Positions 4,492 to 53,659 of a DNA stretch of 64,000 nucleotides are shown here, in pieces (the stretch's first letter is position 1; every line of letters starts with the position of its first letter). The stretch is from positions 30,549 to 94,548 of the forward strand of contig MKUJ01000007.1 of the NCBI GenBank assembly GCA_001897755.1, in the 5' to 3' direction. The notes beneath the pieces are model-generated. The model saw only the letters and a list, made by a program, of their open reading frames with translations. It had not been told where the DNA came from and made no database searches. A program made the position numbers and the translations under genes. The DNA comes from Afipia sp. 64-13. Lineage in GTDB: Bacteria > Pseudomonadota > Alphaproteobacteria > Rhizobiales > Xanthobacteraceae.

Positions 4492-4634
4492 GGTATTCCT
4501 CGATCATCGCGGCTATCTGTCTCGAATCGGGGCACTCTCGCCGATGCTGATTAACGGCCTCTTAAGAGTTGACGCCGGGATGGCGTAAGCGTCCCGTCGC
4601 CGGATCAGAAGCGCATAACACTGGGTTGGAAAAC

Positions 4635-6539
4635 ATGGCTGCACGTTCGTCCTCCGCTCTCCGCAAACCGTCCGCGACATCGAAGGCTGCGAAGCGGGCC
4701 AAGTCCAAGCCCGCCGCCAAATCCAGATCGGCCGTCAAGTCGAGGCCCGCCGCGAAGGCGAAAGCGCCGAAGCTGCCGGAATGGAATCTGACCGATCTTT
4801 ATGCCTCGATCGACGCGCCGGAGATCGCGCGCGACCTCGACAGGCTCGACGCCGACTGCGCGGCGTTCGAAAAAGAATATAGAGGCAGGCTTGCGGAAGA
4901 GACCGCCAAGCCCGAGGGCGGCGCCTGGCTTGCCGAAGCGGTGAGGGCCTATGAGGCGATCGACGATCTGATCGGCCGGCTGATTTCCTATGCCGGCCTC
5001 GTCCATGCCGGCGACACCGTCGATCCCAAGATCTCGAAATTTTACGGCGACGTCTCCGAGCGCATCACCAATGCCTCGACGCATCTGCTGTTCTTCGCCC
5101 TCGAACTCAACCGTATCGACGACGATGTGATCGAGCGCGCGATGCAGGCGCCGGCGCTCGGCCATTACCGGCCGTGGATCGAGGACAGCCGCAAGGACAA
5201 GCCCTATCAGCTCGAAGACCGCGTCGAGCAGCTCTTCCACGAGAAGTCCTCGACCAGCTACGGCGCCTGGAACCGGCAGTTCGACCAGACCATCGCCGGT
5301 CTGCGCTTCAAGGTCGGGGGCAAAGAGCTCGCCATCGAGCCGACGCTGAACCTGTTGCAGGACCGTGCGCCCGAGAAGCGCAAGGCGGCGGCGCAGGCAC
5401 TGGCGAAAACCTTCAAGGACAACGAGCGCACCTTCGCGCTGATCACCAACACACTGGCGAAAGACAAGGAAATCTCCGACCGCTGGCGCGGCTTCCAGGA
5501 TGTCGCGGACTCGCGTCATCTCGCCAACCGCGTCGAGCGCGAGGTGGTGGACGCGCTGGTGGCGTCGGTGCGCGCGGCCTATCCGCGGATTTCGCACCGC
5601 TATTATGCGCTGAAGGCCTCGTGGTTCAAAAAGAAGAGACTGGCGCATTGGGATCGCAACGCGCCGCTGCCCTTCGCCGCCACCGGCAGCATCGCATGGA
5701 ACGACGCCAAGGCTACCATCCTCAAAGCCTATGGCGATTTCTCGCCGCAGATGGCCGACATCGCCAGGCGCTTCTTCGACGATCGCTGGATCGATGCGCC
5801 GGTGCGGCCGGGCAAGGCGCCCGGCGCGTTCTCGCATCCGACCACGCCCTCGGCGCATCCGTATGTCTTGATGAACTATCAGGGCAAGCCGCGCGACGTG
5901 ATGACGCTCGCCCATGAACTCGGTCACGGCGTGCATCAGGTGCTGGCGGCCAAGCAGGGCGCGCTGATGGCGCCGACGCCGCTGACGCTGGCGGAGACCG
6001 CGAGCGTGTTCGGCGAGATGCTGACCTTCAAGCGCCTCCTCGCGCAGACCCAGAATGCGAAACAGCGTCAGGCGCTGCTCGCCGGCAAGGTCGAGGACAT
6101 GATCAACACGGTGGTGCGCCAGATCGCGTTCTATTCGTTCGAGCGCGCGATCCACACCGAGCGGCGCGCGGGCGAACTCACCGCGCAGCGCATCGGCGAG
6201 ATCTGGCTGTCGGTGCAGGGTGAGAGCCTTGGGCCGGCGATCGAGATCAAGCCCGGCTACGAGACGTTCTGGATGTACATCCCGCACTTCATCCATTCGC
6301 CGTTCTACGTCTACGCCTACGCCTTCGGCGATTGTCTGGTGAACTCGCTCTACGCGGTCTACGAGAACGCAAACGAGGGCTTCGCCGGGCGTTATCTCGA
6401 CATGCTCTCGGCCGGCGGCACCAAGCATTATTCCGAACTGCTGGCGCCGTTCGGGCTCGACGCCAAGAACCCGACCTTCTGGGACGGCGGCCTCGGCGTG
6501 ATCGAGAGCATGATCGGCGAGCTGGAGGCGATGGGCTAG
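4635..6539 (+). CDS. pepF: M3-family oligoendopeptidase F-like with AK-rich N-terminal tail
   Basis: Zinc metallopeptidase of family M3 that cleaves short peptides, expected in the cytoplasm. The zinc site HELGHGVHQ is present with a downstream glutamate region (TLAETASVFGEM) and the C-terminal M3 motif MYIPHFIHSPFYVYAYAFG. The ORF opens at 4569, but I place the start at the ATG at 4635 because the residues before it look unlike the family. The mature fold begins near WNLTDLYASID. Between them lies a tail of about 45 residues, almost only Ala/Lys/Ser/Pro/Arg (SKPAAKSRSAVKSRPAAKAK), resembling histone-H1-like tails. That tail is not part of the M3 domain and is its odd feature. Catalytic residues look intact. 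Confidence 0.9.
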   Translation: MAARSSSALRKPSATSKAAKRAKSKPAAKSRSAVKSRPAAKAKAPKLPEWNLTDLYASIDAPEIARDLDRLDADCAAFEKEYRGRLAEETAKPEGGAWLAEAVRAYEAIDDLIGRLISYAGLVHAGDTVDPKISKFYGDVSERITNASTHLLFFALELNRIDDDVIERAMQAPALGHYRPWIEDSRKDKPYQLEDRVEQLFHEKSSTSYGAWNRQFDQTIAGLRFKVGGKELAIEPTLNLLQDRAPEKRKAAAQALAKTFKDNERTFALITNTLAKDKEISDRWRGFQDVADSRHLANRVEREVVDALVASVRAAYPRISHRYYALKASWFKKKRLAHWDRNAPLPFAATGSIAWNDAKATILKAYGDFSPQMADIARRFFDDRWIDAPVRPGKAPGAFSHPTTPSAHPYVLMNYQGKPRDVMTLAHELGHGVHQVLAAKQGALMAPTPLTLAETASVFGEMLTFKRLLAQTQNAKQRQALLAGKVEDMINTVVRQIAFYSFERAIHTERRAGELTAQRIGEIWLSVQGESLGPAIEIKPGYETFWMYIPHFIHSPFYVYAYAFGDCLVNSLYAVYENANEGFAGRYLDMLSAGGTKHYSELLAPFGLDAKNPTFWDGGLGVIESMIGELEAMG

Positions 6540-6597
6540 GCGCCGACCGGTGGGGTAGGGCATCGACGGCCCGTAAAACATTTGTTGAACGGAACCG

Positions 6598-6632
6598 CTG
6601 TCTCCGTTATACATTCCGTATAACGGAGACAG
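6598..6632. promoter_or_regulatory. Perfect 15-bp-arm palindrome, probable toxin-antitoxin operator
   Basis: Arms CTGTCTCCGTTATAC and GTATAACGGAGACAG are exact reverse complements around the 5-bp spacer ATTCC. The element ends 3 bp before the antitoxin ATG, so it overlaps the Shine-Dalgarno position. It is probably the autoregulatory binding site of the AbrB-like antitoxin. As RNA it would also fold into a strong hairpin over the ribosome site. Confidence 0.75.
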
Positions 6633-6635
6633 GCC

Positions 6636-6896
6636 ATGAATGAGCATTCCCGAGACCCCAAGGCCGGCGACCAGGCGCTCCAGATTCGGAAGATTGGCAA
6701 TTCCGTTGGGCTGATCCTGCCCAAGGAGTTGCTCGCGCGCCTCAATCTCAAGGAAGGCGACAAGGTTTATCCGCTGGAGCAGCCGGACGGCAGCCTGCGG
6801 CTGTCCCCCTTCGACCCCAAGCACGCCAAGGCGATGGAAATCGCGCGTCAGGTGATGCACGAGTACCGCGACACGCTTGCCGCTCTGGCAAAATGA
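6636..6896 (+). CDS. AbrB/MazE-like antitoxin
   Basis: 86-aa DNA-binding antitoxin. The N-terminal half is a swapped-hairpin AbrB/SpoVT domain (LQIRKIGNSVGLILPKELLARLNLKEGDKVY), which dimerises on palindromic operators. The C-terminal helix (HAKAMEIARQVMHEYRDTLAALAK) is the expected toxin-neutralising segment. Its stop overlaps the toxin start (ATGA), showing translational coupling. It should repress its own operon at the palindrome immediately upstream and mask the downstream Doc-type toxin. Confidence 0.88.
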   Translation: MNEHSRDPKAGDQALQIRKIGNSVGLILPKELLARLNLKEGDKVYPLEQPDGSLRLSPFDPKHAKAMEIARQVMHEYRDTLAALAK

Positions 6897-14331: not shown

Positions 14332-15822
14332 ATGATGTCATTAGCATATAAGCTGGACCATGCCGAAACGCGCGCCGACGCACACATCCCGAGCAAGCTG
14401 CTCCTGATCGACGGTCGTCACGTCGCATCGGCATCCGGCCGGACCTTCAAGTCGATCAATCCGGCGACGGAAGAGGTGATCGCAACGGTCGCGGAGGCCG
14501 GCGAGGCCGACGTCAATCGCGCGGTCGCCGCCGCGCGCCGCGCCTTCGAGGGGCGGTGGCGCACCATGCGCGCGGCCGAGCGCGGTCACATCCTGCTGCG
14601 GCTTGCGGACCTGATGACGCGGCACGCCGACGAGATCGCCCGGCTGGAAAGCCTCGATGCCGGCAAGCCAATCGCCGGCGTTCTGCGTCAGGATCTTCCC
14701 GCCGCGATCGATACGCTGACCTACTATGCCGGTTGGGCCGACAAGATCCTGGGCGAAGTGGTGCCGACCCGCGACGACGCGCTGACCTACACGATGCGCG
14801 AGCCGGTCGGCGTGGTGGCGGCGATCGTGCCGTGGAATTTCCCGCTGATGATCGGCATGTGGAAGCTCGCGCCGGCGCTCGCATGCGGTTGCACCGTGGT
14901 GATGAAGCCGGCGGAGCTTACCTCGCTGTCGGCGCTTCGGATCGGCGAGCTTGCGCTCGAGGCCGGTCTGCCGACCGGCGTTCTCAACATCGTGCCGGGT
15001 CCGGGGCGCGTCGTGGGCGACGCGCTGGTCAATCATCCGGACGTCGACATGGTGACCTTCACCGGCTCGCCGGGTGTCGGACGCGGAATCATGCGCGGTG
15101 CCGCCGGCAGCTTCAAGCGCGTGTCGCTGGAGCTTGGCGGCAAGTCGGCCAATGTCATTTTCGACGATGCCGACCTCGTGGCCGCGACCCGCGCGGCGGC
15201 GTCCGGAATCTTCTTCAACGCCGGTCAGGTCTGCTCGGCGGGCTCGCGCGTGCTGGTGCAGGAGAAGGTCTATGACGAAGTCGTCGAGCGCCTGACACAA
15301 CGCGCCAGGTCGTTGCGGATGGGCGATCTGTCCGATCGCGCCACCTCGCTTGGGCCGGTGATTTCCGAGAAGCAGATGAACAGCATTCTCGATTACGTCG
15401 ATATCGGCCAGAAGGAGGGCGCTACGCTGGTCACCGGCGGTCAGCGGGTCGGTGAGCGGGGTTATTTCATCAGCCCGGCGGTGTTCGCGAACGTCGAGCA
15501 CGAGATGCGGATTTCGCAGGAGGAGATCTTCGGGCCGGTGGTCAGCGTCATCAAGTTCAAGGATGAGGACGACGCGATCCGCATTGCCAACGGCACCGCG
15601 TTCAGTCTCGCCGCCGGCGCGTGGAGCAAGGATATCGGCCGCCTGCAGCGGTTCGCCAAGCGCGCCAAGGCGGGCACGGTGTGGCTCAACACCTACGGCT
15701 ACACCAATGTGCGTCTGCCGTGGGGCGGGTCGGGCGATTCCGGCCTGGGCCGCGAGCATGGCACCGCCGCGCTCGAACATTTCACCGAACCGAAGGCGGT
15801 GTGGCTCAATCTGAACGGCTAG
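14332..15822 (+). CDS. NAD(P)+-dependent aldehyde dehydrogenase
   Basis: 496-aa ALDH superfamily enzyme oxidising an aldehyde to its acid in the cytosol. Motifs are PWNFPLMIGMWKLAPALACG (cofactor entry), FTGSPGVGRGI (nucleotide loop), general-base Glu in LELGGKS (about residue 267) and nucleophile Cys in GQVCSAGSR (about 300), plus EEIFGPVVSV. It is closest in style to betaine-, phenylacet- or other semi-specific aldehyde dehydrogenases; the substrate cannot be fixed. Start at 14332 is preceded by ACGGAGGAAAT, an excellent ribosome site; the ORF's longer start is a shadow. It is divergent from the HTH/binding-protein-like regulator. Its stop codon touches a 13-bp-arm hairpin. Confidence 0.92.
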   Translation: MMSLAYKLDHAETRADAHIPSKLLLIDGRHVASASGRTFKSINPATEEVIATVAEAGEADVNRAVAAARRAFEGRWRTMRAAERGHILLRLADLMTRHADEIARLESLDAGKPIAGVLRQDLPAAIDTLTYYAGWADKILGEVVPTRDDALTYTMREPVGVVAAIVPWNFPLMIGMWKLAPALACGCTVVMKPAELTSLSALRIGELALEAGLPTGVLNIVPGPGRVVGDALVNHPDVDMVTFTGSPGVGRGIMRGAAGSFKRVSLELGGKSANVIFDDADLVAATRAAASGIFFNAGQVCSAGSRVLVQEKVYDEVVERLTQRARSLRMGDLSDRATSLGPVISEKQMNSILDYVDIGQKEGATLVTGGQRVGERGYFISPAVFANVEHEMRISQEEIFGPVVSVIKFKDEDDAIRIANGTAFSLAAGAWSKDIGRLQRFAKRAKAGTVWLNTYGYTNVRLPWGGSGDSGLGREHGTAALEHFTEPKAVWLNLNG

Positions 15823-15926
15823 AGTCTGTTTCAACTGCGTTGAAACAGACTCGTCGCTTATCTTTTTGTTTGATCGAGCATGATCTTTTTCGAAAACCGG
15901 TTTCCGCTTTTCGGGGGCATGCTCTA
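15822..15926. repeat. Dispersed palindromic element (two adjacent imperfect palindromes)
   Basis: The left part is a perfect inverted repeat GAGTCTGTTTCAA / TTGAAACAGACTC around CTGCG, beginning in the ALDH stop codon. The right part (15875-15926) starts GAGCATGATC and ends GCATGCTC around CGAAAACCGGTTTCCG. This matches my memory of an intergenic repeat common in Bradyrhizobium relatives. Only one copy is in this window, so repetition is from background knowledge. Confidence 0.6.
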
Positions 15927-15981
15927 GCGGCTAGTCGCCGGGCAGGCCTGTCCGGCTTGCGGGCGTCCACCTCTTCAAAGC

Positions 15982-16010
15982 AAAAACGCGGGCTTGTGGC
16001 CCGCGTTTTT
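15982..16010. terminator. Bidirectional intrinsic terminator (rpsU / ALDH)
   Basis: A 12-bp stem AAAAACGCGGGC/GCCCGCGTTTTT with loop TTGTG. T-runs follow on both strands, so it can end both the minus-strand rpsU transcript and the plus-strand ALDH transcript. Confidence 0.85.
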
Positions 16011-16033
16011 GTTTTTGAAAATTGTCGGACGGC

Positions 16034-37748: not shown

Positions 37749-37778
37749 GTGCATTGCAATATTTTTATTGCAATGCAC
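37749..37778. promoter_or_regulatory. TGC-N3-GCA double dyad, candidate PhaR operator
   Basis: GTGCATTGCAAT and ATTGCAATGCAC are exact inverse arms around ATTTTT. Each arm contains a TGC-N3-GCA dyad (TGCATTGCA and TGCAATGCA), the core I recall for the PHB-sensing repressor PhaR. It lies 110 bp before the second phasin. The same DNA is a perfect 12-bp hairpin. Confidence 0.55.
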
Positions 37779-53616: not shown

Positions 53617-53659
53617 ATGCCCGGGGCATCCCCGATCAGGTCGGGGATGCCCCGGGCAT
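53617..53659. repeat. 19-bp-arm perfect palindrome
   Basis: ATGCCCGGGGCATCCCCGA and its exact reverse complement are separated by TCAGG, in the convergent gap between an exported-protein gene and thiC. No T-run. It is a member of the same GC-palindrome style as the other dispersed repeats here, and may act as a transcript end. Confidence 0.7.

Follow-up and report, generated by a model that had tools for sequence, protein, structure and literature searches.

A perfect palindrome lies between a pepF-like peptidase gene and a putative antitoxin gene in the 64,000-nucleotide stretch of DNA from Afipia sp. 64-13 that was analyzed here (the window), and it covers the ribosome site of the antitoxin gene. 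Such a position raises the question of whether the element works as DNA, as RNA, or as both. The first-pass annotation of this DNA had proposed both roles, namely an operator and, once transcribed in the operon's own RNA, a hairpin that hides the ribosome site and thereby adds a second level of control to the toxin-antitoxin (TA) operon. Here, we address this question by comparison of homologous loci and by RNA folding.

The palindrome and its operon

The geometry of the palindrome was confirmed by the repeat search and by the sequence. The arms (6598–6612 and 6618–6632) are 15 nt long, 100% complementary, and separated by the loop ATTCC, and the antitoxin ATG (6636) lies 3 bp past the right arm, as had been annotated. 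Among the inverted repeats of the window with loops of 3–20 nt, longer perfect arms were found in a single case; this longest perfect inverted repeat, at 53617–53659, is very G+C-rich, with 19-bp arms and a loop of 5. Other perfect inverted repeats were noted at 15822–15852 and 15981–16011 (14 and 13 bp), the latter being followed by a T-run and having the look of an intrinsic terminator, and at 37749–37778 (13-bp arms, A+T-rich, of the TGCATTGCAATA...TATTGCAATGCA type). The palindrome in front of the antitoxin gene is composite: variable outer arms, which in the window measure 8 bp each, flank a conserved 19-bp core (Table 1).

The annotation of the downstream gene as the antitoxin of a TA operon was supported by the profile matches of both the antitoxin and the Doc/Fic toxin. 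The antitoxin scored 34.7 bits against PF04014 and 74.2 bits against TIGR02609, both above the cut-off. Its gene is located directly 5' of the toxin gene, with an overlap of 4 bp (6893–6896), and the Fic motif of the toxin is intact (HPFIDGNKR). Judged by its gene content and order, the operon is a chromosomal TA of the composite mazE-doc (TasAB) type. The pepF-like gene has the same strand as the operon and ends 58 bp upstream of the palindrome.

Table 1. Coordinates of the palindrome, the predicted control elements, and the genes around them in the window
Feature	Position	Strand	Remarks
pepF-like M3 peptidase gene	4569..6539	+	PF01432, PF08439; start codon uncertain
Upstream element GTAAAAC-ATTT-GTTGAAC	6573..6590	.	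pair of half-sites resembling the operator, over the -35 box
-35 box TTGAAC (predicted)	6585..6590	+	fixed offset kept in homologues
Perfect palindrome	6598..6632	+	15-bp arms, 5-nt loop
Left outer arm CTGTCTCC	6598..6605	+	complementary to the right outer arm with the Shine-Dalgarno; covaries between loci
Operator core GTTATAC-ATTCC-GTATAAC	6606..6624	.	conserved in homologous loci; predicted binding site
-10 box TATACA (predicted)	6608..6613	+	within left arm, 17-bp spacer to the -35 box; conservation and left/right asymmetry
Predicted transcription start, ~6620	6618..6622	+	start of right arm; placed from the -10 position
Right outer arm GGAGACAG	6625..6632	+	read from the sequence
GGAG, likely Shine-Dalgarno	6625..6628	+	within right arm, 7 nt before ATG
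MazE/AbrB-fold antitoxin gene, 86 aa	6636..6896	+	PF04014, TIGR02609 doc_partner
Doc/Fic toxin gene, 132 aa	6893..7291	+	PF02661, TIGR01550; solved Doc structures match

Probable operator core and promoter in homologous loci

A set of 171 homologous loci was assembled from species genomes; the toxin was present in 170 of them, and pepF was detected upstream in 140. Removal of near-copies left 112 representative loci. The inner dyad GTTATAC-N4/5-GTATAAC was found upstream of the antitoxin with at least 12 of 14 matching positions in 166/171 loci, and the score maxima in the controls were 10/14 for coding sequence and 11/14 for shuffles. The 19-bp inner dyad occurs as a single copy in the 3.6-Mb genome, with no occurrence of the reversed-pattern control. 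The idea of a regulon was dropped, since the operator core was found only at its own locus in the genome.

Comparison of the homologues demonstrated that the conserved dyad overlaps the -35 and -10 promoter boxes. Besides the core, the sole strong signal in the 112 representatives was TTGAAC at positions -21 to -16 relative to the core, and within TTGAAC-N17-TATACA both boxes were conserved and the spacer was not. Among the loci without the upstream half-site GTAAAAC, TTGA at the same offset was still the top signal, but in fewer of them (13/64). In addition, one-sided changes at core position 4 were much rarer in the left half (4) than in the right half (33; p = 1e-6; 4 vs. 26 in the representatives, p = 6e-5). 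This position belongs to the -10 box on the left and not on the right; thus, the asymmetry is an independent sign of the promoter. The boxes fit the pattern TTG-N16-18-TATA of promoters mapped in B. japonicum (PMC4842269), and TATACA fits the alphaproteobacterial -10 boxes without a final T known from M. extorquens (PMC9320726). A simple scan with E. coli rules, which found no promoter between pepF and the palindrome because these rules require the -10 box to end in T, was replaced by the comparison of homologues.

The operator part of the annotation was strongly supported by this comparison, and the palindrome is very probably an autoregulatory operator that overlaps the -10 box. With high confidence, we expect the 19-bp core to be bound by the antitoxin or by the antitoxin-toxin complex. 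The bound complex would likely block RNA polymerase, given the location of the -10 box within the left arm, a reading for which the comparative evidence is strong. By the same position of the -10 box, the operon's own transcript is expected to start in the right arm and would therefore lack the left arm and the hairpin, with a leader of 14–18 nt and an open Shine-Dalgarno. This prediction contradicts the hairpin that had been annotated in the operon's own transcript. The first-pass annotation had itself regarded a start inside or after the palindrome as incompatible with an RNA role, and the predicted start falls inside it.

Measured from the core, the two half-sites of the upstream element begin at distances of 33 and 22 bp upstream, close to helical phasing, and the half-site GTAAAAC was detected in 48/112 representative loci. 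This element may well be a second, cooperative operator. Its half-sites have an inverted orientation relative to the core, and a normal orientation was observed in L064, L109, and L131. Three further loci or records deserve a remark. L116 carries a perfect palindrome with 15-bp arms, CGGACCCTGTATAAC-ATTT-GTTATACAGGGTCCG, in which the order of the half-sites is opposite to that of all other loci. In L006, which belongs to the same genus (G008), promoter and operator are almost identical to those of the window, yet the antitoxin identity is only 51–52%; either the control and coding regions have had different histories or the operator is strongly constrained. L061 is recorded as Frankia sp. RB7, and its locus falls within Bradyrhizobium on the toxin tree; the record is probably mislabelled or contaminated.

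Outer arms and possible RNA entering from pepF

Beyond the 7-bp arms of the core, the flanks showed little sequence conservation. Their pairing was nevertheless far more frequent than in the controls: runs of at least six extra pairs were found in 23/146 loci, vs. a mean of 0.4 (maximum 4) with partners shuffled, and in 19 of the representatives (n = 112) vs. 0.3 with shuffling. Partner shuffling leaves relatedness in, and kinship was accounted for with the toxin tree, on which extended arms were defined as at least six pairs with G.U allowed (35 loci). The extended-arm state changed at least 14 times on this tree (22 by parsimony); thus, extended arms were gained or lost many times. Double compensating changes affecting four pairs were observed between the sisters L158 and L159, and the sisters L155 and L173 likewise differ by four compensated pairs, with CTCC/GGAG retained. 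Most close relatives, such as the Bradyrhizobium group L017–L040, have no extended arms, which indicates that the hairpin is dispensable.

Extended arms were also linked to T-runs. TTTT occurred within 18 nt after the stem in 12/35 extended loci vs. 2/111 others (p = 4e-7), and T-runs were commoner at start-codon distances above 16 nt (p = 0.008). For the mirror AAAA to the left of the stem, no link with extended arms was detected in the same loci, and the mean counts of T and A near the stem ends did not differ significantly; on these grounds, a bidirectional terminator with a symmetric A-run and T-run was rejected. In the window, no T-run follows the stem, where GCCATGAA stands instead, and no terminator was found at this palindrome; an intrinsic terminator in the window itself was rejected accordingly. 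Some relatives thus have a terminator-like hairpin on the sense strand, and others, like the window, have a hairpin that swallows the Shine-Dalgarno.

Two further comparisons concerned the upstream gene and the type of pairing. Extended arms were commoner with pepF upstream (39/123 vs. 2/23, p = 0.024, uncorrected for relatedness), and this association is weak. A test of G.U vs. A.C mismatches for selection on RNA gave a G.U share of 0.54 vs. 0.38 in composition-matched shuffles, mostly from position 1; the G.U excess does not go beyond composition and was set aside as support.

Folding separated the two possible RNAs clearly. RNA starting at 6540 folds to the full 15-bp stem (z = -4.1), and in RNA starting at 6620 most of the leader is unpaired; the Shine-Dalgarno was modelled to be free of pairing with a probability of 0.0002 for the read-through RNA vs. 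0.66 for the own-start RNA. We slightly favor the reading that the outer arms act only in RNA entering from pepF, where the whole hairpin would hide the antitoxin ribosome site or, in the relatives with T-runs, would cause termination, so that the operon is insulated from unscheduled expression. Both hairpin types would stop expression of the RNA that enters from pepF and spare the RNA of the operon's own promoter.

Other explanations of the outer arms were considered. If the palindrome were an operator only, the outer arms would be extra DNA contacts or functionless, and the RNA structure would be irrelevant. The core and the promoter do explain all of the sequence conservation, and the extension is missing in many relatives; however, the pairing of the outer arms persists despite the variation of their sequence, which sequence-specific contacts do not predict, and the T-runs go together with extended arms and are specific to the sense strand. 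We consider this explanation unlikely. The pairing could also have arisen without selection. Quasipalindrome correction is a known class of mutation, in which one arm of an imperfect palindrome is rewritten from the other by template switching, and arms that are often perfect, change state many times, and differ in sequence are consistent with it. Such a bias predicts neither T-runs on the sense side only, nor their link with distant start codons, nor a link with an upstream pepF, and it appears improbable.

The least probable alternative, which we regard as very doubtful, is the one annotated originally, with the hairpin in the operon's own transcript hiding the ribosome site as a second level of control. 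An RNA with both arms does fold to the full stem with GGAG hidden, but the -10 box conserved in the left arm implies own transcripts without the hairpin, and the simple scan offered no other promoter between pepF and the palindrome. What can be retained of the RNA role is a modified form, which applies to read-through RNA from pepF and to which the covarying outer arms and the strand-specific T-runs of the relatives point. The whole model, combining an operator, a promoter in the left arm, and a read-through hairpin, is in our judgment reasonably probable. The arguments are evenly balanced for its extension to the family, according to which TA operators repeatedly evolve outer arms, so that one DNA element would be an operator, a promoter, and a hairpin formed only in read-through RNA, with the location of the start codon setting whether translation is blocked or transcription terminated.

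Significance and comparison with known systems

Chromosomal TA operons are often located downstream of other genes, and the question of what protects them from unscheduled read-through expression has rarely been raised. Should selection have shaped the outer arms as a device against read-through, a single element would account for both autoregulation and insulation and would add a layer of insulation to chromosomal TA operons that lie behind a co-directional gene. The many independent state changes of the outer arms provide a natural series of variants. The results also correct an error of reading: a palindrome over a ribosome site is not necessarily part of the gene's own mRNA.

In a literature search that covered only a minority of subscription papers, no title or abstract fitting TA control by a hairpin plus an operator was found. 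The nearest match in gene order is TasA-TasB, the composite mazE-doc system of Bacillus thuringiensis pGI1, in which a MazE-like antitoxin gene is followed by a Doc toxin gene, as here; stop and start codons often overlap in systems of this type, as they do at 6893–6896, and homologues from Rhodopseudomonas palustris were listed in the same work (PMC1626090). As a difference from TasA-TasB, the locus in the window is chromosomal and lies behind pepF. The terms "palindrome" and "inverted repeat" are absent from the text of that paper, and an operator palindrome thus seems to be undescribed there.

Taken alone, the operator core is of a kind usual among type II TA operons. It is comparable to the operators of RelBE, Kis-Kid, and MazEF, in which repeats overlap the promoter, covering the -10 box in RelBE and Kis-Kid as here, and are bound by the antitoxin and with greater strength by its complex with the toxin (PMC3920265). 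The predicted operator described here differs from these in that covarying outer arms lengthen the core as far as the Shine-Dalgarno. These repeatedly evolved outer arms are the unusual part and are best read as a block to read-through; the anti-read-through hairpin is plausibly a new variant. Phd-Doc of phage P1 resembles the operon in its Doc/Fic toxin and its autoregulating antitoxin, but the antitoxin there is Phd, and that of the window is MazE/AbrB-like.

The closest parallel to the RNA part of the model may come from transposons. In the transposase genes of IS10 and IS50, the ribosome site is hidden in transcripts that enter from outside, which contain both arms of an inverted repeat, and the own promoter starts transcription after the first arm. 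The hairpin of these elements arises at a transposon end, whereas that of the window would be a TA operator, and we do not claim common descent; by analogy, the logic of protection against read-through would nevertheless be shared by both.
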